The notes below the pieces were generated by a model, which did not search any database, was not told where the DNA came from, and worked only from the letters and a program-made list of their open reading frames with translations. Below are positions 35-59,740 of a stretch of DNA of 64,000 nt, one piece after another. The position numbers and the translations under genes are program-made. Each line of letters begins with the position of its first letter. Position 1 is the stretch's first letter. This DNA comes from Branchiostoma floridae (lineage: Eukaryota > Chordata > Leptocardii > Amphioxiformes > Branchiostomatidae). The stretch lies in the NCBI RefSeq assembly GCF_000003815.2, contig NC_049985.1, positions 19,775,893 to 19,839,892 of the forward strand, given 5' to 3'.

Positions 35-160
35 ATCCAAAGTGTCGGTACTGGTCTGTGCCTGGACAGTGACGGGCTAAACTCTGAGGATCCCGTGGTC
101 CTGAGAAGATGCAGAGACAGACAAGGGGCATTTGGATTGACAAAAACTTATCCCAACCAG
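35..160 (+). CDS. Polypeptide GalNAc-transferase, lectin-domain exon (alpha repeat)
   Basis: This exon encodes 42 residues in phase 0, starting IQSVGTGLCLDSDG and ending KTYPNQ. It follows an acceptor ending ACAG at 34 and precedes a donor GTACGT at 161. The GTGLCLD stretch followed by PVVLRRC matches the first repeat of the ricin B-type lectin domain found at the C-terminus of UDP-GalNAc:polypeptide GalNAc-transferases, the Golgi enzymes that start mucin-type O-glycosylation. The wording is closest, from memory, to the GALNT10 group, but the subfamily is not proven. The catalytic domain would lie upstream, outside the window. The exon joins in frame to 494-637. Family assignment is fairly sure because both exons independently fit the same domain. 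Confidence 0.75.
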
Positions 161-493: not shown

Positions 494-637
494 AATTTCA
501 CGTATACGGGACTGAAGGAAATAGAAATCACGGACCGCCATCTTTGCTTCGACGTCGATTCCTTGTCCCGGGAGAAGACTTTGGTTTTCTTGACGTGTCA
601 TGGGGAGGGGGGCAACCAGATGTGGGAATATCACAAG
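494..637 (+). CDS. Polypeptide GalNAc-transferase, lectin-domain exon (beta repeat)
   Basis: This exon encodes 48 residues in phase 0. It follows the acceptor TTTTTAACTGCAG and precedes the donor AAG|GTAAGA at 637/638. The protein starts NFTYTGLKEIEITDRHLCFD and ends LTCHGEGGNQMWEYHK. CFD followed by a CHG-GGNQ-W signature is the second repeat of GalNAc-transferase lectin domains, with the QxW-type motif near the end. Phase and content match exon 35-160. I found no later exon for the rest of the domain before the minus-strand gene at 5132, so the 3' exons are either unrecognised here or lost. A retroelement sits seven bases past the donor and has duplicated it. Confidence 0.8.
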
Positions 638-643
638 GTAAGA

Positions 644-1093
644 TCCGTAAATAGTTTCATCAGTTTGCTAAATATAGAATACAACACGGTATATTCCGTA
701 TCACCCGAGGTACCAGCCCGACCGAGGGTTGGATCGCCCGACGGCCCATGGCCGCAGCCCAGGTATGACATAAATACTCATATGGTAAGGTTCTTGCAGG
801 ACAACAAAGATAGTACTTAATTCACGTCTATTATACAGTATCATCATGGTAAAATGTCTGGATCTACTTCTCACGTTTGGGACGGCATTCACTATCATCA
901 GGGTAAAATGGCTGGATCTACTTCTCACGTTTGGGACGACATTCTTGTTGCTGCAGCGCCACCTACATCGGCTATAAGTAGCAGTGAGAAGTACATCCAG
1001 CCATTCTACCCTGATGATGGAGTCTGATATATATAGACACCGAAACGTTGGAAGTAAGTACAATCTTGGTTGTGTAAGAAGAACTTTAACTAC
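644..1093 (+). mobile_element. 450-bp retroelement insertion, Penelope-like suspected
   Basis: The insertion is flanked by a perfect 14-bp direct repeat, ATCACAAGGTAAGA, at 630-643 and 1094-1107. Inside there is a tandem direct repeat around 840-935 (GGATCTACTTCTCACGTTTG twice). An inverted partner lies around 984-1016, enclosing a GCGCCACCTACATCGGCT core that also occurs at 4760-4790 (inverted), 23145 and 32405. Near the 3' end, CTGATGA...GAAACGTTGG frames an imperfect stem, as in hammerhead-like motifs reported in Penelope-like elements. No reverse transcriptase is present, so this is a non-autonomous or truncated copy. The class assignment is inference; the insertion and its target-site duplication are seen directly. 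Confidence 0.7.
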
Positions 1094-1107
1094 ATCACAA
1101 GGTAAGA
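1094..1107 (+). promoter_or_regulatory. Duplicated splice donor created by target-site duplication
   Basis: This copy of ATCACAAGGTAAGA repeats the GalNAc-transferase exon end and its 5' splice site at 630-643. Either donor could be used. Splicing here instead of at 637 would retain 464 nt and run into a stop near 818-820, after 60 extra codons. Confidence 0.65.
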
Positions 1108-2103
1108 AATGGAAATATTTTTTTGTTTGTTTCAGCCTTGACTAAATTGGAATTTGACCATTTTAAAGTATGATCACACGTCTTTGTATTATTGTATGTA
1201 ATTGTTGGTAAATTTTCTTTTGTTTAATCAAAAATAATTACTTTGTTATTACATCAGACGATGAGTATGTATCAAGATGGGCGACATACGTTTGTAGCTT
1301 TACACACAAAAAAAAACATAGTTTAATAGTTCCGGTCCTTTTTTTTCTCAGAACAAAAGCATATAATATTAAAGGCAATAAAATATGCTGACGTCATCCG
1401 CAAGGTTCAAACATTACATTTAGAATTTGTCCAGATAACATTTCAGAGTATAATTACAAATCTTTTATCAAAAGCAAAAGAGAGAAAGAACATGTGCCAA
1501 TCAAACAAGTATTGGTTAATGCTCCGCTTTCTCCTCAGTTTTTATAACAGCACACTGCCTGATCAGTGACCTATAACCACATAACAAACCACAATTACCT
1601 TCGCTCTATAAGCAATGAACTTAATTACTATAATTACTGAACTGAACTGAACTATAAGTAATAGAAATGGACCTCTGATCGGTGTTTTAATTTTTTTCAC
1701 ATAGACCACCCTATTTTGTTGGAATTCAAAACTTGATATTCCCTTTAGTTTTTTTTCACCGTTCTGTAGGTAACGGGGCTGCTGCGCCACCTTGTGAGCA
1801 AGCTTTGTATAGCAGTTGACAACGGATCGTATCAACCGACCATGATGCCTTGCGACTACTCGTCAGAGTCACAACAATGGATATTCATTTCTTGAAGACT
1901 GTCGGTGCTTGTGTGTGTGTGTGTCTGTATGTGTGTATGTGTGTGTGTATGTGTTTGGTGTGTTACCACTTTTAATTAGTGCTATTGATCGTAGAAGACA
2001 TTCAAAAATATGTTTTGTTTCTATAATGGAAGTACCGTAGTTCATTTCTCTTGCCATTGCCTTTGCTGTTTTCTACATTAATATTTGTAGGGAATACGTT
2101 GAA
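1108..2103. other. AT-rich intronic or intergenic DNA
   Basis: I see no convincing exon here. A GT-rich microsatellite (interrupted GT/GTAT) lies at about 1908-1958. Confidence 0.6.
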
Positions 2104-2400: not shown

Positions 2401-3129
2401 AACGTTGAAGTGCTGCGCCCCGGGCCCCTTTTGCTAATCATAGAATGTCGGAATAACCAAGAGACTCTTCTTGAAACATATCCGCATTCTGGATTGAAAT
2501 AAAGCCAGTTTTATACGACATAAGTGTGTCATGTGTTGCATTTTTTGCGAACTCAATTAACTAATATAAAAACGGATAGCAGCGGATAGAGCAGCATGGC
2601 GAACAATGACGGCCCGCGTCAGTATGACCCAAAGCTGACATGCGGCGAAGAAGAAGAATATATTAAACTAATGTTCTTTTTTTACAAATCCTGATGCCAA
2701 AACCGGCCATCTTTGCTCTCCAAATAATTGATAGACTTGCAGGACAAGTCAACACCATACATCTGCTTGGAGACTGATATATGGATCAAAAGAATGGCTG
2801 GTAGCTAATATGAAAATTACGCGAACATCGCCTCCGCAATTTGTTCAGCTGTTGAGGTCAAGAGGAGTCAATTGGTCCACACCATTAGGAAGATTGCTTG
2901 GCTGTTTCCTGCATTGATTTTATTGTACTGACTGGAGTCGTTATACAGTGTTTTAGAAATTCTTTTCATGGTCAAAAATAATACTTTAGTGTGTGTTATA
3001 CTTACAACGTAAGGTTTCTGTCCAGTAGAGTCCATTCCAAGACACTATGAGGGTTTTAAGCGATATTTATAATTAGTCTGAAATATTTTGAATAAAAGAA
3101 TATCTGAGCCACGATAATTAAATTATTTT
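2401..3129. other. No recognised feature
   Basis: Mixed-composition DNA. No open frame, exon or mobile-element signature could be supported here. Confidence 0.5.
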
Positions 3130-3560
3130 CAAAAAATTGACTAAGAAAATACTCATTTATTTGAATTTCTTTGAATATTTTAGAAACATTTTGAAAGTAA
3201 CTGTACAAAAATATCTTTATTTAGAATAATTGTGAAACCTCTCTGTGATTATTTCACATTTACAAATATTTACAAAAAATGGTAAACCTGGCCAAAGCTG
3301 GTAAAATTAGTTTATTGCCCCCATAAGAGTAAGCCCTATTGTTGCATCTGTTTTAGATTTCACTGCTGGGCACTGGTGGATCCTTTGTGGTGGGCCATTG
3401 TTGCATGGCACCCAACCATACTTTGCAAGGATGTGTGAATTGCTATCTTCCCAGCCCACCGAACCGTTTACAAAAAATGGTAGAAAATGATAAATAATGG
3501 TAGAATGCTGTTATCATTATTTAGAAACCATTAGAAGTATCCAATTCCACACCATGAATA
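3130..3560 (+). repeat. Old dispersed repeat, partner of 59900-60300
   Basis: Diverged similarity to 59900-60300 includes the shared blocks TCTTTATTTAGAA, GGATGTGTGAATTGC and TCTTCCCAG-CCAC in the same order and orientation. It is rich in TTTAGAAA/TTACAAA words. No terminal repeats or coding potential were seen. The copies are well separated, so this is probably an ancient transposon or non-coding repeat family. Confidence 0.5.
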
Positions 3561-4650
3561 TTTCCAAAGTTTTACAGGACCAGGGAAATATTTATAAAGT
3601 TGAAACAGTGTTAAAAATATTTCTGAAGTACAAATGTCCTAGACATATAATACAAAACTTTAAAATCAATTCTAAACAATGGCAACAAACATCCGCATGG
3701 TGTCTTGGAATGGACTCTAAAAGACATTATTATTATTTTTAAAGATCCATCCACTTCGTCATGATGATTCAGGTGGGAATTTCAAATCATAAGTCAATGT
3801 AAACGTATCACACACAAATGTAGTCAATATTATAGTATCAGTAGTACGTCTATATTTTCATGGGTTATTCTGACAATAGATAAATGTCAGATATTACGTT
3901 ACGAATTGCTTGATGTTGACATATATGTCTGGATGTGCAATCGATTGTTGCAGTTCAGTGAAGTACAAAACATTAAATTATGGTATTTTTTTCCGATTGT
4001 AGATTTTTATAATGTGCACATCAGGAACTTATATTCTAAAGAAAAAACAAAGCTCAGGTAATTCAACATAATTTTTACTGTTTTATTTGCTGAGCACTAG
4101 TAGAAATCGGTGTGATTCTATTTTCGTGACGTTGAAAGAAATCAAATGTTCAATTTCCGTGATCTGGTTTAAGTAATAAGACATTTCTTTCACAAGTTCT
4201 TAAACAATACTTGCCGGCTGATAAATCATCACAGTTTCCCCACAATGATAATTTTTTTATTAATTTAAAGACCGACGACTTTTGTGATGATACGGTTTTA
4301 TTCAAAATTCAAAATACGGCCGCCCGTTTGAAAATCGATCACGCGAGAGCACGTCATAACGAGAACGCACGTGAGCTTGCGCCAAAGCGATGCCGTGATT
4401 GGTGTCTGGCTCCCCTAAGTACCAGATTAATTCTATAAGCCTTGCTACATAGTACAAACACCTTCTAGTGACATAGACAGTCTAGACTCTTTGAAATAAA
4501 TGTAACTATTATTGGTAATTCATAACGCTTCTTCTTGTATAGCTATTCTTGTTATGTTGAGATGACAGAAAAGTATTTAGCAGCAATTTTCGTGCAGTGG
4601 CACATAGGCAACTATAGCTCTCTTGATTTACTGTAAAGCTATTGTCTAAA
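3561..4650. other. No recognised feature
   Basis: AT-rich sequence. Only short unsupported frames are present, for example at 4211-4438, with no splice context. Confidence 0.5.
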
Positions 4651-4651
4651 T

Positions 4652-4914
4652 CACATAGTAAAGTTGTTTGCTGCACAACCAAATTTGTACTCACTTCCAA
4701 CGTTTCGATGTCTGTCAGACACGATCATCAGGGTTAGAATGACTAGGTCTGGTTCTTGCTGCTACTTAGAGCCGATGTAGGTGGCGCTGCAGCAGCAAGA
4801 ATTCCGTCCCAAAGTGGCTCAGCTTGTATCCCCCTCGTCTCTGTTCATCACTGATTTTCATAACCCAGCGTGTGAGTACAAATTTGGTTGTGTAACAAAG
4901 AACCTTACTATGTG
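4652..4914 (-). mobile_element. Retroelement fragment with 43-bp inverted arms (Penelope-like suspected)
   Basis: Arms at 4652-4694 and 4872-4914 are inverted copies of each other with a few mismatches, each containing AACCAAATTTGTACTCAC or its complement. On the minus strand the enclosed segment carries the CTGATGAT...GAAACGTTGG motif (about 4698-4727) and the GCGCCACCTACATCGGCT core (about 4770-4790), as at 644-1093. It lies downstream of the minus-strand gene at 5132-7740. Confidence 0.6.
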
Positions 4915-5131
4915 AGTAATTTACCAACCTTTTTACGGATATTTTCTAAATCATTTCCTTTTTTTACATCGTGTGTTTGTTTTGGTTCCAGCCTTCCCTA
5001 GACAATATTTACCTTCTAAGTATATTATCCTAAAAGTTTTAACTAATTTCCTATTATATAGATGTATACTGACGCAGACTTAAAACTTTTTTCAAAAGAG
5101 GGGCATAAAGATGAGAGAAGATAAAAGATTC

Positions 5132-9862: not shown

Positions 9863-10023
9863 AACGTGGATGCCCCATTTATGTCAAATGAGTAAACAAG
9901 GTGTATGTGTGTGTGACCGCTTCACCCTCGGTCCCAGCTCTCCTGCGGGTCGGCTCATCCTCCGGCTGATCCAACTCTTGGTCAGACTGGTACTTCATGT
10001 GATGTTTTCTACATGTATCCTGT

Positions 10024-21340: not shown

Positions 21341-23099
21341 TTTAACAAGAAAACCGGTTGGGTATCGGTGTGGGACACGTCTAAGTTCACCAGGGACATA
21401 CTACAAAATTTACATCAAATAAATATTTAAAAAAAAAGTATTCAAATAAAGACAGTGTCTTGAATAAACGGATTATTCAAGTTATTAGACAGACGCACCA
21501 TCGGAAACCAGCCCGGCAAACGTAATGGGCTGCGTGTCATTTCTCTCGTCCTTGGTCCTTTGTTCTTTGTCGTTGGTAACTTGGATGGGTGCTTGGTTTG
21601 CCTGTAGGAAGAATCCCGACTATGCCTACATGCTTTGTATTCTGAGGTCTGTATTACATTAGACACTTCAAATGGACATGATTAAACATTAATCTACAAT
21701 GTTCATTTAATTTGATAAAGTGCATAAATGGAATTTACAGTTTGTCTTGAAAATAGCGTAATGGTGACTTACAAATTGAAAGAAATGTGTGAAGACACGT
21801 TTTTGAATATGTAATGTTTTTGAGAGTGGACCATTGTTGCCCGTCGGTTGTATGAGAACTATTCATGCTCAGAGCAGTAACATCTTGTACTAACTAACCA
21901 TTAGAACTACCCTGTGAACGAGACCCGCAGTTTCATGATCCCCGGATGGGCAACGATGGTGGACGATATGGAAATGGTAGGGACAGGCCGTAAAAATACC
22001 GGGACGGGTAGCACAGTTAGTTTTAGACCCCCCCCCCCCCAACCGCACACGTCATTTGTATTTTGTTATGTGGCGCTGTTGAAATAAGTTGTTAAACTTG
22101 AGTGCATTGTCATTGTTATGTGTTTTTGAATAAAAAAAAAATGCGCAGTGACCTTGCGTCTAACGTAGTCATGTTTTTTCCCTCAAATTTTCTGGTTGAC
22201 CCAAAACTTGGAACACTTTACACCGATCCGTTCTTCATTTAAACAAAAGCTCTATACATGAACTTGTATTATCATTTAGTAGTGTGGATGAAAATGAACA
22301 TTGATCACTTCTGTATATATGAGAAGTATGTCCCAACATTAACGTTACCACATATGCGTACCACTGTTGTCGGGCTGAGAAAATGCTACTAGTATTCTCA
22401 CTGTCGGTATGCGTTGGTAAAAAGATTATCACGCGAGCACGCAACTTTTAACCTAGACTTTCATAGAATCGCGAAAACACCAGTGGAATCAAAAGACTAA
22501 GTGCTGGCATACTACACACCCTGTGTGTCCTCGACTTGACGGACCTCGAACACAACATAGAACCCGATCAATGTTTACATGGAGCAGGGATAGGGTAAAA
22601 CTGACTTGTTAAGTTTGCAAAACTAAAATCAACAAAAGATAAAACTAACACATAAAATTTCCTTGATAAATCTCATACAATTACAGATTGTTCTAGCCCT
22701 AGAAATATAGACACTTTTGGGGTATTAATCTCATAAGGTTCGATAGCTACGGTCGTTGAACCGGGGTCGTTGACCTCATTTCGAACAACATTCTGATGTT
22801 CTAAAGGTGTTGTACAGTTTGATGTTGATTGCTAGTATATTTTAAGAATTTTGCTTTAAAACATCGATTGTTTTGTGTCTATATGGGCCCAAATGACCAA
22901 AAAGCGGTGTCTCATGCGACGACCTACCAGCTTGCTAAATTTCAACTTATTTCAAGGTCTAAACGTGTTTTTTTCTCTTGGAGAAGAAGAGGAAACATCC
23001 TGATTTCCTCTTGCGAAGTTTAACAAAATAATTACGAAAATAATTTCATCAGGTTGGTAGAATATAGGAGAATTCTTGTACGCAACCAAAGTTAAACTT

Positions 23100-23260
23100 A
23101 ATACACGTTTGAGATAATGTTCTCGCCGCAAAAGCGCCACCTACATCGGCTACATATCGCGGCAAGAAGCAAAACTCCAGTCAGAAGCTCTGAAGAAGGT
23201 GCCTCATAGACACCGAAACGTCAGCCGTTTGTGCCGTTGTGATACATTTTTATTTCTACC
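23100..23260 (+). mobile_element. Penelope-like motif fragment
   Basis: It holds GCGCCACCTACATCGGCT and then CTGAAGAAGGTGCCT...AGACACCGAAACGTCAG, a stem-forming motif equivalent to the one at 1000-1060. A near-identical copy lies in the second segmental duplication. Confidence 0.55.
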
Positions 23261-23827
23261 ACGTTTGCCCAGAGACGCGCCCGCACCCTCTGCGCACAGA
23301 ACCGTAAAATAACTCTTACCGGGACCCGGACGAGGCTGCAGGCACCCGCCGACTAACATTCAAAGTCATGCATCTTCTTACGAACAGATTCGTTCGTGAT
23401 AAATGGTTTAGTAGCAGGTAGAGGTTTGAACCCAATCACTTAGAGAATTTCTGTGTATATTACATGCATCAAAGCATGGCTATAGTAGTAGAATATAGTG
23501 TCATTGATATTAAAAAAAAACATCTCTTGTTTACATTGACCAAAGGTTAAAGTTTGCCAAAATATTGCAGCAGTTTCATGGTGCCATAATTGATCATAGG
23601 TAAGCACAGAGGCCATTGTCTACATTTCATTTACAATTATACCAAAAAAACTGTAACTATGAATTAAAGAAAAACTTGCAGTTCCACAAGAATCGACGAT
23701 TAAAATCGAAAAGATTTTTTATGACTGTTGTGCCGCCATTTATTTCTGCCAGTTGCATTTTTTGCAGCATTTCTGCATGCGGCCGATGCGTGCGTTTGCT
23801 GTGGATGTCAATATTCTTTGTTGTGGG

Positions 23828-30742: not shown

Positions 30743-33350
30743 GTTATTAGACTGACACACCATCGGAAACCAGCCCGGCAAACGTAATGGGCTGCGTGTC
30801 ATTTCTCTCGTCCTTGGTCCTTTGTTCTTTGTCGTTGGTAACTTGGATGGGTGCTTGGTTTGCCTGTAGGAAGAATCCCGACTATGCCTACATGCTTTGT
30901 ATTCTGAGGTCTGTATTACATTAGACACTTCAAATGGACATGACTAAACATTAATCTACAATGTTCATTTAATTTAATAAAGTGTATAAATGGGATTGAT
31001 AATTTATCTTGAAAATAGCGTAATGGTGACTTACAAATTGAAAGAAATGTGTGAAGACACGTTTTTGAATATGTAATTTTATTGAGAGTGGACCATTGTT
31101 GCCCGTCGGTTGTATGAGAACTATTCATGCTCAGAGCAGTAACATCTTGTACTAACTAACCATTAGAACTACCCTGTGAACGAGACCCGCAGTTTCATGA
31201 TCCCCGGATGGGCAACGATGGTGGACGATATTGAAATGGTAGGGACGGGCCGTAAAAATACCGGCACGGGTAGCACAGTTAGTTTTAGACCCCCCCCCCC
31301 CCACCACCACCACCGCACACGTTATTTGTATTTTGTTATGTGGCGCTGTTGAAATAAGTTAAACTTGAGTGCATTGTCATTGTTATGTGTTTTTGAATAA
31401 AGAAAAAAATGCGCAGTGACCTTGCGTCTTACGTAGTCATGTTTTTTCCCTCAAATTTTCTGGTTGACCCAAAACTTGGAACACCTTACACCGATCCGTT
31501 CTTCATTTAAACAAAAGCTCTATACATGAACTTGTATTATCATTTAGTAGTGTGGATGAAAATGAAAATTGATCACTTCTGTATATATGAGAAGTATATC
31601 CCCACATTAACGTTACCACATATGCGTACCACTGTTGTCGGGCTGAGAAAATGCTACTAGTATTCTCACTGTCGGTATGCGTTTGTTAAAACATTATCGC
31701 GCGAGCACGCAACTTTTAACCTAGACTTCATAGAATCGCAAAAACACCATTGGAATCAAAAGACTAAGTGCTGGCATACTACACACCCCGTGTGTCCTCG
31801 ACTTGACGGACCTCGAACACAACATAGAACCCGATCAATGTTTACATGGAGCAGGGATAGGGTAAAACTGACTTGTTAAGTTTGCAAAACTAAAATCAAG
31901 AAAAGATAAAACTAACACATAAAATTTCCTTGATATATTTCATACAATTACAGATTGTTCTAGCCCTAGAAATATAGATACTTTTGGGGTATTAATCTCA
32001 TAAGGTTCGATAGCTACGGTCGTTGAACCGGGGTCGTTGACCACATTTCGAACAACATTCTGATGTTCTAAAGGTGTTCTACAGTTTGATGTTGATTGCT
32101 AGTATATTTTAAGAATTTTGCTTTAAAACATCGATTGTTTTGTGTCTATATGGGCCCAAATGACCAAAAAGCGGTGTCTCATGCGACGACCTACCAGCTA
32201 AATTTCAACTTATTTCAAGGTCTAAACGTGTTTTTTTCTCTTGGAGAAGAAGAGGAAACATCCTGTTTTCCTCATGGGAAGTTTAACAAAATAATTCCGA
32301 AAATAATTTTATCAGGTTGGTAGAATATAGGATATAGGAGAATTCTTGTACGCAACCAAAGTTAAACTTAATACACGTTTGAGATAATGTTCTCGCCGCA
32401 AAAGCGCCACCTACATCGGCTACATATTGCGGCAAGAAGCAAAACTCCAGTCAGAACATCTGAAGAAGGTGCCTCATAGACACCGAAACGTCAGCCGTTT
32501 GTGCCGTTGTGATACATTTTTATTTCTACCACGTTTGCCCAGAGACGCGCCCGCACCCTCTGCGCACAGAACCGTAAAATAACCCTTACCGGGACACGGA
32601 CGAGGCTGCAGGCACCCGCCGACTAACATTCAAAGTCATGCATCTTCTTACGAACAGATTCGTTCGTGATAAATGGTTTAGTAGCAGGTAGAGGTTTGAA
32701 CCCAATCACTTAGAGAATGTCTGTGTATATTACATGCATCAAATCATGGCTATAGTAGTAGAATATAGTGTCATTGATATTAACGGTTAAAGTTTGCCAA
32801 AATATTGCAGCAGTTTCATGGTGCCATAATTGATCATAGGTAAGCACAGAGGCCATTGTCTACATTTCATTCACCAAAAAACTGTAACTATGAATTAAAA
32901 AAAAACTTACAGTTCCACAAGAATCGACGAATAAAATCGAAAAGATTGTTTATGACTGTTGTGCCGCCATTTATTTCTGCCAGTTGCATTTTTTGCAGCA
33001 TTTCTGCATGCGGCCGATGCGTGCGTTTGCTGTGGATGTCAATATTCTTTGTTGTGGATGACATCATTTTGCACCAATCACAGGGAAGTAAGTTTCCCTC
33101 GATCAATCTACATAATACGTACATCGTGGACTCTGTTATGCAGTATATTTTAGAATATTAGGACAAACAAGACGTACCGAACTGTAGACCAGGTCTTCAA
33201 CTGGTCCTCCACATCCAGTTTCTTCTGGCACTGATAAGATCTACTTTGGGTGACTTCAGATTGTCTGATAGATTGTCCAACATCTAGCGAACCGTATCGA
33301 CTGTATTTACCACCCAGGTAAGTTTTCCACTAGCGCTGCTTTCTACACTG
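30743..33350 (+). repeat. Segmental duplication, copy 2
   Basis: Partner of 21482-24100. It includes the minus-strand open frame at 30928-30707 and the Penelope-like motif at about 32370-32530. Differences include loss of the TGTTTACATTGACCAAA block near 32780 and an expanded poly-C/CCA run at 31290-31310. Confidence 0.85.
33059..33318 (+). promoter_or_regulatory. Promoter-donor module 4
   Basis: The core is at 33059-33078. The donor CACCCAG|GTAAGTTTT is at 33317/33318. The second donor position, at about 33505, has decayed to GTGGAATGG. Confidence 0.55.
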
Positions 33351-44585: not shown

Positions 44586-45107
44586 TAAGTTTTCCACTAG
44601 CGCTGCTTCTAAACTGTTGAACGAGACCGCGATTGCCGAAAGATTGTCCTGATGATTGTTCGACCGTATCTAACGTGACAGTGACTTCAGGTCGAGATTG
44701 TCCGAAAGATTTTTTGACATATATATACGATATGCATCTAGCCAACCGTACCAACTGTATCTAGCACCCAGGTAAGATAGTTTCCCTACTAGCGCTGCTT
44801 TCTACAAACGCTTGATCTTGTAGAATTAATAGTTGTTGAGTTATACTGCTGCCTATTGCTGTATTCTTCGCAAGACATGGCAGGTTTGTGATGGTAGAAC
44901 AAATGTTTGTCAAAAAAGGCGCGCCAGCCCGTGTCTCCAGCATACCAGAACTGTCCAAAAGTCATGGCCGAGACTTGGTTGGAGACACACGCAGACCAAC
45001 TATCAATGGCATGCATCTTCTTAAGAATAGCTTCGTATGTTATAAATGATTAAGAAGCAAGGAGAGAGTTAAACACAATCACTGAAAATCTTCCTATGTA
45101 TTAATCC

Positions 45108-46847
45108 ATGTCAGCTGGTCCAAACAAAATACAAATTGGTACCAAAAATACCGAAAATAAAGATGAAACATGTAATGAATTCAATGATTTTTTCACTAAT
45201 ATTGGACCTTCACTTGAAAGTAAAATCCCAAAAGGAACACAAGATCCTCTTAGCTACATCACTTTACAAGTAAATTCTAACCTATCAACTTTTGTGCAAC
45301 CAACTGATGCTGAAATTACAGATATTGTAAAAAACTTAAAAGACTCAGCTGCTGGTCATGACGAAATTAGCCCTAAAGTACTAAAGTTGTCACTACCCTA
45401 TGTTATTGCCCCTCTAACACATATTCTTTCTCTATGCTTGCAAAATGGAATTGTTCCCCACCCACTAAAAGTCGCAAAAGTGACGCCTATTTTTAAAAGC
45501 AGTGACCCACTAAATGTTAACAACTATCGACCAATATCTGTCCTTCCCTGCATATCTAAAGTCTTGCAAAAGCTAGTATATAGTCGTCTTTTGAAACATT
45601 TAAATCAAAATAACATCCTATATAAACATCAATATGGTTTCCGAAAGGGCTATTCTACCTCTCTGGCACTCATACACTTAATGGAAAAAATTTCTACCGC
45701 CATAGATAATTCAGAATACACAATAGGAATCTTTCTCGATCTATCAAAAGCATTTGATACGGTTAATCATTCCATTCTACTCAATAAACTAAAACGATAC
45801 GGTATATGTGACTCCGCAATAAAATGGTTCTCGTCTTATCTATCCAATAGACAACAATACGTAGCTCTTAACGATAATAAATCACAACCCAAAATAATAG
45901 AATGTGGTGTCCCACAGGATTCGATATTAGGACCACTACTTTTTCTGATTTATATAAATGATCTCGAAAAAGCATCCTCAATTATATTCTTTATCCTATT
46001 TGCAGATGATTCAAATCTTTTTCTTTCAAACTCGAATTTTGATACGCTAGTAAAACTTGCTAACGAAGAAATGAAGAAGTTTATGTCGTGGTTTGAGGCA
46101 AATAAATTATCAGTAAATGTTAAGAAGACATATTATCTAATTTTCTGTAATAGAAATAAAACCTATAACAAAAGTGCCAAAATCTTTTTAAAAAGTGTGC
46201 CCCTGTCTCAAGAGAGTCAAGCCAAATTCTTAGGTATAATCATTGATGATCGACTGACCTGGAAATCGCATATAACTATGTTAGGTAAAAAGATTTCAAA
46301 AACTATCGGTATCATTGGAAAACTTAAACATATTCTTACTCAAAAAACCATTATTACCTTATATAATAGTTTAATATACCCGTATCTAACCAACGGGAAT
46401 ATAGTCTGGGGATGCGCCTACAAAACCACACTACAGCCCCTGATATTGCTCCAAAAAAGATTTGTTCGTTCAGCCACGGGCGCCAGTTTTCATGCACATT
46501 CTGCACCTTTGTTTACAAAACTTAAGATTTTGAATATTTTTGATATCAACAGACTTCATCTGATGCTATTTACGTTTAAATTCCTAAACTGTTCTCTTCC
46601 AGAAACATTTAATGGTCTACTAAATCTTAATTCTCATTTTCATAATTACCAAACTCGACAAAGTGCTCATTTCCATATTCCCCTAGTTAGAACGTCAGTA
46701 GCCCAAATGAGTGTAAAACACAAATGTATAATTAATTGGAATAATCTCCCCCTCCATCTAAAATGTTTAACATCAATACTTAGTTTTAAACGCAATCTAA
46801 AAATCACCTACTTTCCTTTCCCACTGACATTTGACATCTTATCTTAA
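45108..46847 (+). CDS. Non-LTR retrotransposon reverse transcriptase, partial
   Basis: An uninterrupted 579-codon frame. Order of RT blocks: YRPISVLPCISKVLQKLV, QYGFRKGYSTS, FLDLSKAFDTVNHS (about residues 208-221), GVPQDSILGPLL (about 266), ILFADDSNLF (about 295), NVKKT and FLGIIIDDRLTWKSH. The C-terminal region includes LYNSLIYPYLTNGNIVWG. The usual GVPQGS has Asp in place of Gly, and the N-terminal endonuclease is absent, so activity is doubtful. The ATG start comes from host DNA at the insertion point. Clade is Jockey/CR1/L2 group by general pattern only. Confidence 0.85.
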   Translation: MSAGPNKIQIGTKNTENKDETCNEFNDFFTNIGPSLESKIPKGTQDPLSYITLQVNSNLSTFVQPTDAEITDIVKNLKDSAAGHDEISPKVLKLSLPYVIAPLTHILSLCLQNGIVPHPLKVAKVTPIFKSSDPLNVNNYRPISVLPCISKVLQKLVYSRLLKHLNQNNILYKHQYGFRKGYSTSLALIHLMEKISTAIDNSEYTIGIFLDLSKAFDTVNHSILLNKLKRYGICDSAIKWFSSYLSNRQQYVALNDNKSQPKIIECGVPQDSILGPLLFLIYINDLEKASSIIFFILFADDSNLFLSNSNFDTLVKLANEEMKKFMSWFEANKLSVNVKKTYYLIFCNRNKTYNKSAKIFLKSVPLSQESQAKFLGIIIDDRLTWKSHITMLGKKISKTIGIIGKLKHILTQKTIITLYNSLIYPYLTNGNIVWGCAYKTTLQPLILLQKRFVRSATGASFHAHSAPLFTKLKILNIFDINRLHLMLFTFKFLNCSLPETFNGLLNLNSHFHNYQTRQSAHFHIPLVRTSVAQMSVKHKCIINWNNLPLHLKCLTSILSFKRNLKITYFPFPLTFDILS

Positions 46848-52635: not shown

Positions 52636-53340
52636 GTAGGCACCAAAAGGCAGTGATAGTGAGGAACAGCTATTTTGACAGAGGCGACACTATGAATCCG
52701 AAAATTATACAAATGTTTGAAGTATCGTTAATGATCTTTAAATCAAATAATCCGCTGGGCCGAATACTCTCTCTTCGTGAGGCAGAGAACGCCTCTCTTT
52801 CTAAATTGCGAGAAGTTTGCAATAGGCGGGCTAAATCGCAAGGTTCTGGATATGCTACCATTCGTTGCTAACTCAGGTGACATCAGGCAGTAAATGCCCC
52901 AGGAGCGGTCATATGCAATTGCAGAAAGATAGAGAGGTAGACAGACAAAGAGGAAGACAGACAAGGTTGCAGACAGACAGACAGATAGACAGGCAGACAG
53001 ACAGGCTTGCAGACAGATAGATAGCTAGAAAGAAAGAAAGAAAGAGAGAAAGCCAGATAAGGCAAGGATATAGACGGACAGGGTTTTCAGACAGACAGAG
53101 AGGTAGACAGGCTATATTGCAGACAATTAGAGAGGTAGACACGCGAATAGGATGCCAGACAAGGATACAGACAAAAAGGCAAGGAGACAGAGTGGCAGAA
53201 TGAAAGGAATGCAGACAGACAGACAGACAGGCAGACAGACAGGGTTGCAGAGAGACGAGAAAGCCAAAGATACAGACAAAAATAGTTGCAGACAGATTCA
53301 GAGGTAGACAGGCAAAGAGGAAGCCAGGCAAGGATAAAGA

Positions 53341-53562
53341 TTTCTAACACGATGTCAGGCGTAGTTATCTGTTATGGCTTGTGAAAAGGCCGCGGTTTAC
53401 TGGAAACGCCCGGTATTACGGCTTACCGTGACAGAGACCCGGCGCCCGTACGTGTGCTGGGGAGGGAAGCCAGTCTCGACAAGCACACGGATACGGTATC
53501 GGGCCATGTAGCCGCGTTGTACAAAAAATCCCGAATAACTACGTCTGACATCGTGTTAGAAA
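53341..53562. mobile_element. 222-bp inverted-repeat element
   Basis: Ends of about 28 bp are inverted copies starting TTTCTAACACGATGTCAG. An internal stretch (GTACGTGTGCTGGGGAG then CTCGACAAGCACACGG) is repeated just outside the right end at about 53575-53620. No clear target duplication was seen. Confidence 0.7.
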
Positions 53563-53875
53563 CTTCTCCCATGTACGTGTGTTGGGGAGAGAGGCTTAAA
53601 ACTCGACAAGCACGCGGATATTTAGGCTAAAACTCGATGTTTTGCTTGCCGGGCGTGCGGTACGCCGCCATTTTAACACTGAAGACTGGTGATATCGATG
53701 TTCTGCCGCGCGGGCGGCTTTTTTTCCAACATGCCTCAATTTTTAATAAAAAACTATCATTACCTCGCGAGGTATGACGTTTGTCGAGAGCACTGACGGG
53801 GTTAAAGTTTTGGATGTTGTGATTTAGATGAACTAGAAAGGGATTTGTCGGGTTAGCGGCCGATTCCACGGGCTG

Positions 53876-54050
53876 GCGGGGGTGTTGGAGGGACGTCCCC
53901 TATGCCCGATGACCATACCATTTCCGGAGGAGCGTCCCCTAATTGAGGGAGAAACATCCCCTTTCCAAGAGGAGCGCCCCCTTGAAAGTCGAGGAGTGTC
54001 CTATTTTCTAGAGGAGTGTGCACATTCGCGAGGGATGTCCCCATTCGATT
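53876..54050 (+). repeat. Imperfect tandem repeat of about 20 bp
   Basis: Units of the form AGGAGYGTCCCCTTTYYNAG repeat about six times between two blocks of the minisatellite. Confidence 0.65.
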
Positions 54051-57000
54051 GGTCGGGGTGAAAAAGGCAGCCAGACAAGGATACGGACAGACAGGGTCGC
54101 AGACAGACAGACAGTCGGGCAGACTAGCTAACAGACAGAAAGAGAGGTAGAAAGACAAAGGGGAAGCCAGACAAGGATACAGACAGACAGGATTAAGACA
54201 GATGGAGAGGCAGACAGACTGGCTTGCAACAGGTAGAGAGGCAGATTGACAGGCCTGCAGACGGATAGAGTAGTAGACAGACAAACAGGAAGCCAGACAA
54301 GGATATAGACATACAGGTTTGAAGCTCAACACAGAGAAAGACAGACAAAGATTAATCTAGACAAGGATACAAATAGACGGGGTTAAAGGCAGACAGACAG
54401 GCTTGCAGACAGAGAGGAAGACAGATACGCTTGCGTACAGGGAGAGAGGGATACAAACATAGAGAAAGACAGATAAGGACAAACAGACAGGCTTGCAGAC
54501 AGACAGATAGTCAGGCAGACTGGATTGCAGACAGGTAGAGAGGTAGACGGACAAATAGGAAGCCAGGCAGGGTTACAGACAGACAGAATGGCAGAAAAGC
54601 AGACAAAAGGCAAAGATGAGGCCAGACAAAGATACAGACGGGCAGGGTTGCATACAGAAAGAGAGGCAGACAGACAGGCTTGCAGACAGATAGAGAGGTA
54701 GACAGACAAAGAGGAAGCCAGACAAGGATACAGACGGACAGGGTTGCATACATATAATGAGGCAGACATTCAGGGATGCAGACAGATTGAGAGGTAAACA
54801 GGCAATGACGAAGCCAGACAGACAGAGAGGCACACAGACAGTCTTGCAGACAGATAGAGAGATAGGCAGATAAAGAGAGTTAGACAAGGATACAGACGGA
54901 TAGGGTATACAGACAAAAGGGGAAGCCAGACAGGTTGCAGACAGACAAAGAGGAAGCCAGGCATGGTTGTAGATAGACATAAAGGTAGACAGAAAGCATT
55001 GCAGACAGATTGGGGGATAGACAACCAAATAGAGAGCAAGACAAGGATACAGACAGACAGGGTTGCAGACAGACAGAGAGGCACACAGACAGTCTTGAAG
55101 ACAGATAGAGAGATAGGCAGACAAAGAGGAAGCCAGACAAGGATACAGACACACAGGATCGCGGACAGACAGGCAGGCAGACAGACAGGCTTGCAGATAG
55201 ATAGACAGGTAGACTGATAGAGAGGTAGACGGACAAAAGACAAAGACGAAGCCAGACAAGGATACAGACATACAGAGAGGCCAGCAGAGAGAAAGAAAGA
55301 AAGACAGACAGTCAGGGTTACAGACAAGTAGAGAGCTAAAAGGACATGGTTACAGACAGATAGAGGGGTACCGAGACAAAGGGGAAGCCCGGTAGGGTTA
55401 AAGACAGACAAGGGGACAGACAGACAGGCTTGTAGACTGATAGAGAGGTAGGCAGACAAAGAGGGAGCCAGACAAAGATACAGACGGACAGGGTTGCAGA
55501 CAGACAAAGAGGCAGACAGAGAGGCTTGCAGACAGATAGACAAATGGACAGACAAAAAGGAAACCAGACAATGATACAGACAGATAGGATTGCAGACAGA
55601 CAACGGAGAAGCCAGAGAGGGTTGCAGACAGACAGAGAGGCTGACTGACAGGCTTTTAGACAGATAGAGAGATAGACTGACAAAGAGGAAGCCAGACAAG
55701 GATACAGACAGACAGGGTTGCAGACAGACAACGAAGAAGCCAGAGAGGGTTGCTGACAGACAGAGAGGCAGGCAGACAGGCTTGCAGACAGATAGAGATA
55801 TAGCCAGACAAAGAGAAAGCCAGACAAGGATACAGACGGACCGGGTTGCAGACAGACAAAGACACAGGCGGGCGGGCCTGCAGACAGATAGATGGGTAGA
55901 CTAATAGGGAGACAGACAGACAGGATTGCAGACAAACAGAGAAGTAGACAGACAAAGAGGAAGCCAGACAAAGTTGCAGACAGAGTCAAAGGCAGACCGA
56001 CAGGCTTGCAGACAAACAGAGAGATAGACAAATAGAAAACCAGACAAGAATACAGACACACAGGGTTGCATACAGACAGAAAGCAGAAAGGCAGGCTTGA
56101 AGACGGACAGAAAGGTTTTCATACAGATACGATTGCAAACTAACAGACTAGCAGACAGACAAGCTTGCAGACATATAGATAGGCAGACAGACAAAGAGGA
56201 AGCGATACAAGGATACAGACAGACATGATTGCAGACAGAGAGGTAGATAGACGAGAAGAAAGCGAGGCAAAGATATAAACAGACAGGGTTGCAGACATAT
56301 AATAAGTCAGACATGTAGGGTTGCAGACAGATAGAAAGGTAAATAGACAATAAAGAGGCCAGAAAATGTTGCAGACAGACAGAGTGGCAGACAGACAGTC
56401 TTGCAGACAGATAGAGAGGTAAAAAGACAAAGAGGAAGCCAGGCAATGATACAGACAGACAGGGTTGCAGACAGACGGAAAGACGCAGGCAGTCATGTTT
56501 GTAGACAGATAGAGAGGTAGACAGACAATGAGGGATCCAGACAAAAACAGACAGGGTTGCATGCAGACAATAAAAGGCCTGACAGGGTTGCACACGGATA
56601 GAGAGGCAGACCCACAACGAGGATTCCAGACAAGGATACAGAGAGACAGGCTTAGCTTGCAGACAAACAAAGAGGAAGCCAAACAGGGTTGCAGACGGAT
56701 AGAGAGGTAGACAGACAAAAGACGAAAAGGAAGCCAGACTATAATTCAGACAGACAGAAAGGCAAGCAGACTGAGAGGCAGACGGACAGGGTTACAGACA
56801 TACAGAGAGCTAGACAAACAAGGTTCCAACTGATAGAGAGGTAGACAGACAAAGAGGAAGCCAGACAGGGTTTTAAAGACAGAGAGGCAGACGGACAGGC
56901 TTTCAGGCAGATAGAGGGGTAGGCAGACAAATAGAATGCCAGACAAAGATACCGACAGACAGGGTTCCAGACAGACAAAGAGGAAGCTTGACAGGTTTGC

Positions 57001-57078
57001 AGACAGACAGAGAGATGCAGACAGACAGGCTTGCAGACAAAGTGAGAGATAGACAGACAAAGAGAAGCAAGACAACGA

Positions 57079-57830
57079 TACATGTCCCCTTACCAGTTTT
57101 GTGGTCAGACATTAGAAACCACAAAAACCCACCCATACCTTGGTGTTACATTAACAACTGGGCTGAAGTGGGGTGTCCATGTTAACAAAATAACAACCAA
57201 GGCTAAACAGACATTGGGAGTAATCAAACGTAACTTGTGGGCATGCCCAACCAGGGTAAAATCACTTGCATACACGTCACTAGTAAGACCTAACCTTGAA
57301 TATGCCACTATACAGTATGGGACCCGTATACAAAGAAAGACAAAGATAAACTTGAAAGGGTACAGAACCAAGCTGCCCGATTCTGCACAAACAACTATAA
57401 CAGGGATTCTAGTGTTACCAAAATGAAAACAGATCTACAGTGGATGTCACTTGAAGACAGAAGGAAAATGTCCAGACTTTCCATGATGTACAAAATGACC
57501 AATAAACTGGTGGACGTACCAACGGATAAGTATCTAATACCAGCTCAAAAAAGAACAAGAAACAGTCATGCCTTCAAATACCAGAGTTACCAACCTAGGA
57601 TTGATGTGTTCAAAAATTCGTACTTTCCCAGAACTATCGCAGAGTGGAACTTGTTATCATCAAGTACAGTAGGGGCATCTTCTCTCGGTAGTTTTAAAGA
57701 ACGCTTGCAGAGAGATGTGCAAAAGTTAGGGGTAACGAGTCGTTCGGTGTAATGTAACCAGCTGCTGCCGCGCCGCGTGCCTGGAAAGCTGGTGTGTTAC
57801 GCCGAACGGCGGTTATACCGGCTATATAGA
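57079..57830 (+). pseudogene. LINE C-terminal fragment inside the minisatellite
   Basis: Frames at 57079-57420 and 57423-57752 read FCGQTLETTKTHPYLGVTLT, LKWGVHVNKITTKAKQTLGV and SLVRPNLEYATIQYGTR, then TDLQWMSLEDRRKMSRLSMM, NSHAFKYQSYQP and YFPRTIAEWNLL. This is the post-RT C-terminal part of a non-LTR retrotransposon, with a frame change near 57330-57420. It ends TATAGATACAGATACAGATA, merging with the repeat. Confidence 0.8.
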
Positions 57831-59148
57831 TACAGATACAGATACAGACGGACAAGGTTGCATACAGACAGAAAGGCAGGCAGGCAGGCTTGCAAATTGA
57901 TAGAGGGGTAGACAGACGAAGTAAAGGCCAAACAAAGATACAGACGGACAGAGTTGCAGACAAACAGAGATGCAGACAGACATACTTGCAGACAGATAGA
58001 GGGGTAGGCAGACAAAGAGGAAGCCAGACAGGGTTGCACATAGACAGAGAAGCAGGCAGGGAGGCTTGCAGACGGACAGACAGGGTTGCTTGCAGATACG
58101 ATTGCAAAGTAACAGACTAACTGACAGACAAGCTTGCAGACAGATAGAGAGGTAGACAGACAAAGAGGAAGCCATAATATGATACAGACGGACAGGATTG
58201 CAGACAGAGAGGTAGACAGACAAAGAGGAAGCCAGACAAAGGTACAGAAAAACATGGTTGAAGACGTATGATAAGGCAAACATACAAGGATGTAGAGTGA
58301 TAGAGAGGTAAACTGAAAATGACGAAGCCAGATGGGGAAGACAGACAGAGAAACAGACAAACAGGCTAGCAGATAGATTGAGTTATAGACAGACAAAGAG
58401 AAAGCCAGGCAATGTTTCAGACGTGTCTAGACAGACAGAGACGCAGGCCCTAAGGCTTGCAGACAGATAGATAGGGAGACAGATAAAAATGAAGCCAGAC
58501 AAGGATACATACAGACAGGGTTGCAGACAGACAGAGAGGCATACAGACAGGCTTGTAGACAGATAGGTGATTAGACAGACAGACTTATGACAATAATGCA
58601 GACGGACAGGGCTGCAGACAGGCGAAGAGGCAGACAGACAGGCTTGTAGACAGATAGAGAGGTAGACAGACAAAGATGAAGTAAGACAAGGATACAGACA
58701 GACAGGGTTGCAGACAGACAAAGAGAAAGCCAGACAGGGCTGTAGACAGACAGAGAGGCAGACAGACAGGCTTGCAGATCAGACAGATGGAGAAGTAGAC
58801 AGACAAAGAGTTAGCCAGACAAAGATACATACGGGCATGGTTGCAGACAGACAAAGAGGCAGACAAACAGACTTACAGACAGATAGAGAGGAAGTCAATG
58901 AGGAAGACAAAGATACAGGCCGACAGGGTTGCAGATATATGGAAAAGCGGACATGCAGGGATGCGGACAGATAGAGAGGTAGACAGACAAATAGAAGCCA
59001 GACAGGGTTGCAGACGGACAGAGAGGCAGACAGACAGGCTTGCAGACAGATAGAGTCGTAGATAGACAAAGTGGAAGCTTGACAAAGATACAGATAGATA
59101 GGGTTGCAGACATACAGAGAGGCAGACAAACAGGCTTGCAGACAGATT

Positions 59149-59740
59149 AATGTAAAACTTCCAATCAAAATAACGGATTTACCCAAATACGCCGCCGTAT
59201 CCGTCAGGATTCGAAGAAACTCCTCTCCGAGACGTATACGGCATCGGAATCGGTCGTATTTGCAGTGCATCGTCGCATCTAGAATATCTTTCTGAATTGA
59301 ATATGGATAAATTATGCTTTGATATCGTTTACGGCCAAAGTCCAAGATGGCGTACCCTATGACCAGATCAAGAATTAGTAGCTTATTATCACTTAAAATT
59401 TCATAACTACCTGTCATTTAAAAAAGAAACGTTGTAATGAACTTTTTAAGTAAATTTGAACTGTCCTTTGCGATCATTTGTTGAAAAAATGTATTTGAAA
59501 AATCAATTTGGCTGATATATGATGGCTAAGCTCAACTGGTATGTTAGATATGCATGTACAGTTTTTTAACAAAAAAACATTTCTTAACAAAAAATGACGT
59601 CGATGATGTTGCTATTGGCAACACAAGTGGTAAAAAACATTGCAATTCTTTTATGTGCACCTAGTATTTCATTTTTGTAGCATACTTTGTTGTCAGGGAA
59701 TGCCCTTTTTCAAAGTTCCAGCCAATATAGTTAAATTTAT
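59149..59740. other. No recognised feature
   Basis: AT-rich intron sequence. An ATGACGTCGATGATG segment near 59594 contains a TGACGTC CRE-like site. Confidence 0.5.

Follow-up and report, generated by a model that had tools for sequence, protein, structure and literature searches.

The analysed stretch of 64,000 nucleotides (hereafter the window) carries near its start three exons of a gene and, at the 3' end of the second of these exons, an inserted repeat element. We assign the gene to the polypeptide GalNAc-transferases on the basis of the lectin domain within the window, the catalytic domain lying outside it. The features are as follows.

35 to 160, plus strand: GalNAc-transferase exon, start of the lectin domain (phase 0; genome match over 35-163; acceptor 34/35, donor 160/161)
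494 to 637, plus strand: penultimate lectin-domain exon, 48 codons, ending in MWEYHK (phase 0; homology)
630 to 643, plus strand: 14-bp target-site duplication, first copy, holding the exon end at 637 and the donor GTAAGA
644 to 1093, plus strand: 450-bp element (copy A), assigned to the Penelope-like elements (PLEs) and 5'-truncated (family comparison, ORF remnant)
644 to 677, plus strand: tail-like 5' end, beginning TCCGTAAATAGTTTCATCAG, common to other copies
778 to 874, minus strand: inverted degenerate copy of the terminal repeat, foldback arm (self-comparison)
894 to 928, minus strand: second, shorter inverted copy, pairing with 984-1018 at 94%
923 to 994, plus strand: remnant of the PLE ORF end, SHVWDDILVAAAPPTSAISSSEKY (intact counterpart in genomic copy L046)
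956 to 957, plus strand: acceptor-like site inside the element (956/957; top 2.5% of AGs, matrix not fitted to this species)
1011 to 1047, plus strand: hammerhead-like core, CTGATGA, stem II and CGAAACG (pattern; Rfam negative)
1094 to 1107, plus strand: 14-bp target-site duplication, second copy, with the duplicate donor 1101/1102
1770 to 1895, plus strand: last coding exon, VTGLLRHL to WIFIS and stop (homology, frame)
4640 to 4953, minus strand: copy B, consisting of the element (4654-4939) and 14-bp direct repeats at 4640-4653 and 4940-4953 with one mismatch (sequence comparison)

Exons 35-160, 494-637 and 1770-1895 join in phase 0, and their product matches the ricin-type lectin domain of Pfam with E 2.5e-21. 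When the joined exons were compared with the PDB, six of the seven distinct sequences matched were polypeptide GalNAc-transferases (the best being 1xhb, E 3.4e-14), and the seventh was ebulin (E 3e-4). The alignment with 1xhb (GalNAc-T1) runs without a gap across the junction 637/1770 (MWEYHK/VTGLLRH against LWEYDPVKLTLQH), and the exon therefore ends at 637. A genome search with the three exons returned their own matches and a single distant locus at 42% identity (E 0.001), with no uninserted copy of the gene among the exon matches in this assembly. The empty site was likewise not found in the same assembly with the intron flank 1094-1769, which gave one full-length match and five weak partial ones. 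Two stretches beside these exons, a tRNA-like one at 2105-2245 downstream of the gene and its antisense relative at 274-413 in the preceding intron, look like a SINE, although no tRNA gene was reported by ARAGORN.

Exact copies of ATCACAAGGTAAGA lie at 630-643 and 1094-1107, and no other site with up to two mismatches was present on either strand of the whole window. The bases outside both copies differ, so that the repeat does not extend beyond 14 bp; the insert between them occupies 644-1093, with a net gain of 464 bp. The donors at 637 and 1101 are identical from -8 to +6 and score the same, within the top 0.55% of 3996 GTs, by a frequency matrix that, like the other splice-site matrices used here, was not fitted to this species. 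As a control for a chance match, we counted 14-mer pairs within 1 kb: one pair was found in 2 of 10 base-shuffled windows, and the real window holds 1950 because of its other repeats. The pair at the donor is nevertheless significant, because its two copies coincide with both ends of a member of a repeat family, and direct repeats are found at the same ends of other members, namely copy B and further genomic copies. Chance was rejected as the origin of the pair on these grounds, and we regard a chance match or an assembly artefact as scarcely credible.

The insert matches three further places in the window, copy B (4654-4939, minus strand) and copies C and D near 23033 and 32296. The ends of copy A (TCCGTAAATAG at the start and ACTTTAACTAC at the end) are the same as those of copy B (TCCGTAAAAAGG and ACTTTACTATG). 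The direct repeats beside copy B, TGATTTAGAAAATA and TGATTTAGACAATA, differ at one of their 14 positions. Copies C and D are near-duplicates of each other, and no target-site duplication was found beside either. The stretches 21741-23513 and 31003-32783 are themselves near-duplicates (96.6% over 1789 columns), which may represent a tandem duplication or an uncollapsed haplotype. Elsewhere in the window, a 580-codon open frame at 45105-46847 encodes a reverse transcriptase domain (RVT_1, E 1.4e-35), and a long stretch of the minus strand at 52909-59417, in which numerous open frames with a high content of Cys, Leu and Ser overlap, is probably a tandem array, as judged from these frames.

The insert belongs to a repeat family of the window's own genome (513,431,437 bases). 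In a search of this genome, 40 of 2078 first-look candidates were scored, and the 39 scored places besides copy A were studied. For direct repeats, the region from 520 to 30 bases before the conserved core was compared with one that starts 20 and ends 75 bases beyond the GAAACGTT anchor. Scores of at least 10 were obtained for 11 of the 39 genomic copies, against 14 of 312 mis-paired controls, and scores of at least 12 for eight of the 39, against one of 312. As judged by eye, the left repeat stood directly before the tail-like start, (T)CCGTAAATA, slightly changed in some copies, in 12 of the 39; the repeats in these 12 copies were 8-16 bp long, and three of them contained one mismatch. L019 and L030, both among the 12, scored no better than the control mean and were counted for position only, and L014 and L025, also among the 12, have almost identical repeats and may represent one event. 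A further high scorer, L015, has no tail, and a duplication beside the tail-like end was not found in 27 of the 39 copies. The target-site duplication in this family is thus of variable length, 14 bp in copies A and B and 8-16 bp in 12 of the 39 genomic copies. These results support the initial annotation, which had read the two ATCACAAGGTAAGA copies as a 14-bp target-site duplication spanning the exon 3' end and the first intron bases, with a 450-bp element between them and two identical donors left by the insertion: the copies are exact and bound a family member, other members are likewise flanked, the homology-supported exon end at 637 falls within the first copy, and the two donors agree in sequence and score.

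As for the identity of the family, an open frame of 255 amino acids was found in L046, reaching 343 amino acids in the longer stretch L059. This frame matches the GIY-YIG endonuclease domain in Pfam at E 5e-4 and 20.7 bits, below the curated cut-off of 22.6, and the L046 frame gave no match in the PDB. The reverse transcriptase domain was not matched in the 343-residue L059 frame, which may be 5'-truncated. The stop codon of the L046 frame falls inside the shared terminal repeat, and its end, SHVWDGILAAATPPTSAISSSKK, corresponds to SHVWDDILVAAAPPTSAISSSEKY at 923-994 of copy A, in which only the last codons are kept; PPTS or PPTA in frame was seen in 30 of the 39 genomic copies. We take this ORF end to resemble those of other PLEs. 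Sequence comparison thus points to a family with a GIY-YIG ORF ending near or inside its terminal repeat, as expected of endonuclease-type PLEs, the Pfam match being below threshold. The layout of the family, a pseudo-LTR with an inverted copy and a short tail, is also that of PLEs. Within copy A, about 100 bp (678-775) are absent from copies B-D and may be captured sequence or mark another subfamily; part of them (700-735) matches 9968-10003 on the opposite strand at 81%.

In copies A and B, the sequence of the 3' part recurs in inverted orientation nearer the 5' end, and both are foldbacks (z about -8, relative to 40 base shuffles per copy). This strong folding, together with the inverted repeats of copy B (44 bp at 91%) and the 14-bp duplications of both copies, would also be expected if the insert were a foldback or terminal-inverted-repeat DNA transposon (MITE) and not a retroelement. 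That origin appears very unlikely, however. The duplications of 12 genomic copies vary from 8 to 16 bp, where a DNA transposon of this kind should give a fixed length, a tail stands beyond the inverted arm, and the copies retain the terminal part of an ORF in which a GIY-YIG motif occurs; the variable duplication length and the ORF remnant led us to reject a DNA transposon. Another pair of inverted repeats in the window (39 nt at 82%, about 630 nt apart, at 3019-3726) is possibly a further foldback or MITE.

The core pattern CTGANGA...CGAAACG is present in all four window copies and, with slightly wider spacing, in 20 of the 39 genomic copies, while shuffled windows contained a mean of 0.03. 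A looser pattern ending in GAAAC still gave four in the window, against a mean of 1.09 and a maximum of 4 in the shuffles. Rfam recognised no hammerhead (copy B being covered by the whole-window search at gathering thresholds), and for this reason we call the motif hammerhead-like only. The core of copy A folds weakly (-5.4 kcal/mol, against -9.9 for a commoner form), and the core sequence was not found in viral contigs. Minimal hammerheads are described in PLEs (PMC11167929, PMC7229834). The family does not fit a metazoan retrozyme, as no canonical type I hammerhead was recognised by Rfam and the PLE ORF end is present.

From these observations we favour, with a probability of about 0.8, the insertion of a 5'-truncated endonuclease-type PLE at the end of the GalNAc-transferase exon, with duplication of the donor 14-mer and, most likely, normal splicing of the gene. 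With the element family, the duplication, the donor identity and the reading frame taken directly from the sequence, we infer a staggered cleavage at the exon border, at which the truncated PLE copy would have been inserted, the repair copying the 14 bp ATCACAAG/GTAAGA to both sides. The eight final bases of the exon and the six that open the intron would thereby have stayed in place, with a second set beyond the element. With the upstream donor at 637 intact, 638-1769 would be removed, and the element and the second donor would be discarded as intron. In exon definition, the donor that bounds the shorter exon is expected to win. The upstream donor should dominate because it bounds an exon of 144 nt and not one of 608 nt, and mostly normal splicing from it is the likeliest outcome predicted.

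The donor at 1101 would then be a competing site, the use of which would keep 464 nt, add 60 codons, deprive the lectin domain of its last 41 residues and yield an mRNA probably open to nonsense-mediated decay. Translation continued from the exon into the insert gives the 60 codons and ends at a TAA (818-820) that precedes the second donor by 281 nt. The initial annotation had taken the insert for a retroelement and had stated that splicing from the downstream donor would retain it and add 60 codons before a stop; the Penelope-like family, with its ORF end kept and direct repeats at the ends of its members, and the frame translation bear out both points. Real use of the second donor, by which the enzyme would be lowered or modified through retention of the element, the added codons and the early end, is an unlikely outcome that still deserves some weight: the donor sequence is the same from -8 to +6, its score is equal and the frame runs as described, but the 608-nt exon would have to be used instead of the 144-nt one.

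Two other outcomes involve the second copy of the 14-mer. The remnant might be exonized from the acceptor-like site 956/957 to the duplicated donor 1101/1102, and the resulting exon of 145 nt, in which a stop comes early, would be a poison exon. By the acceptor matrix the site 956/957 scores 3.03, and the real acceptors 34/35 and 493/494 score 1.96 and 3.33; we consider such exonization improbable, more so than use of the second donor in itself. If it occurred, the element would have been exonized by way of the duplicated donor, with no mutation inside the element required for the gain of a donor. In recursive splicing, 638-1101 would be removed first, with the duplicated AAG/GTAAGA serving as acceptor and then as donor. 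AG/GT does stand exactly at the second copy, but as an acceptor it ranks within the top 24% of AGs, with a score of -2.35 where the three real acceptors of the gene reach 2.0 to 6.5, and recursive splicing was rejected for this poor context as a highly improbable course. A separate acceptor-like site, 1135/1136, is in the top 0.1% of AGs by the same matrix and lies 34 nt downstream of the second donor and 498 nt downstream of the first. In the absence of the insert, its distance from the donor would be too short for an intron; with the insert it is reachable from the donor at 637, which would lead to CCT TGA.

The locus offers a clean natural experiment in splice-site choice, in which a single insertion has left two donors that share 14 identical bases and are separated by 464 nt. 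An insertion onto a donor would be tolerable here in that the target-site duplication restores the donor of the exon. Should the second donor be in use, retroelement sequence could become exon by a simple route. Among the titles and the opening lines of abstracts covered by our literature search, no PLE at a splice donor was described, though such cases may exist.

Several known systems are comparable. Pen2a_Av of the rotifer Adineta vaga has pseudo-LTRs, one of them inverted, an optional 31-bp tail and target-site duplications of 8-10 bp (PMC3846280). The present family resembles endonuclease PLEs of this type in the inverted pseudo-LTR, the short tail, the short duplications, the GIY-YIG ORF in the family and the 5' truncation; copy A differs in being a non-coding 450-bp remnant with a 14-bp duplication and about 100 bp of extra sequence (678-775). 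Metazoan retrozymes are also short, contain a hammerhead motif and have target-site duplications of more than 4 bp (PMC7229834), features to which the short element, its hammerhead-like motif and its duplications longer than 4 bp can be likened. The hammerheads of retrozymes are of the canonical type I and often occur in tandem, whereas this family has a PLE ORF end and a core unrecognised by Rfam. With regard to the splice site, the dog merle allele has a tRNA-derived SINE at a splice acceptor of PMEL with a 15-bp duplication and a documented effect on splicing (PMC7349775). Both cases have a retroelement at an intron-exon border and a target-site duplication involving the splice site, but the merle SINE lies at an acceptor, whereas the PLE here lies at a donor. 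Introners can take a splice site from their own target-site duplication (PMC9860276), and here too a second splice-site sequence has been supplied in this way; Introners create new introns in exons, whereas in the present gene the insertion extended an intron that was already there and gave it a second copy of its donor. Duplication of a splice site by a retroelement is already known, and a PLE at a donor appears to be the new case.
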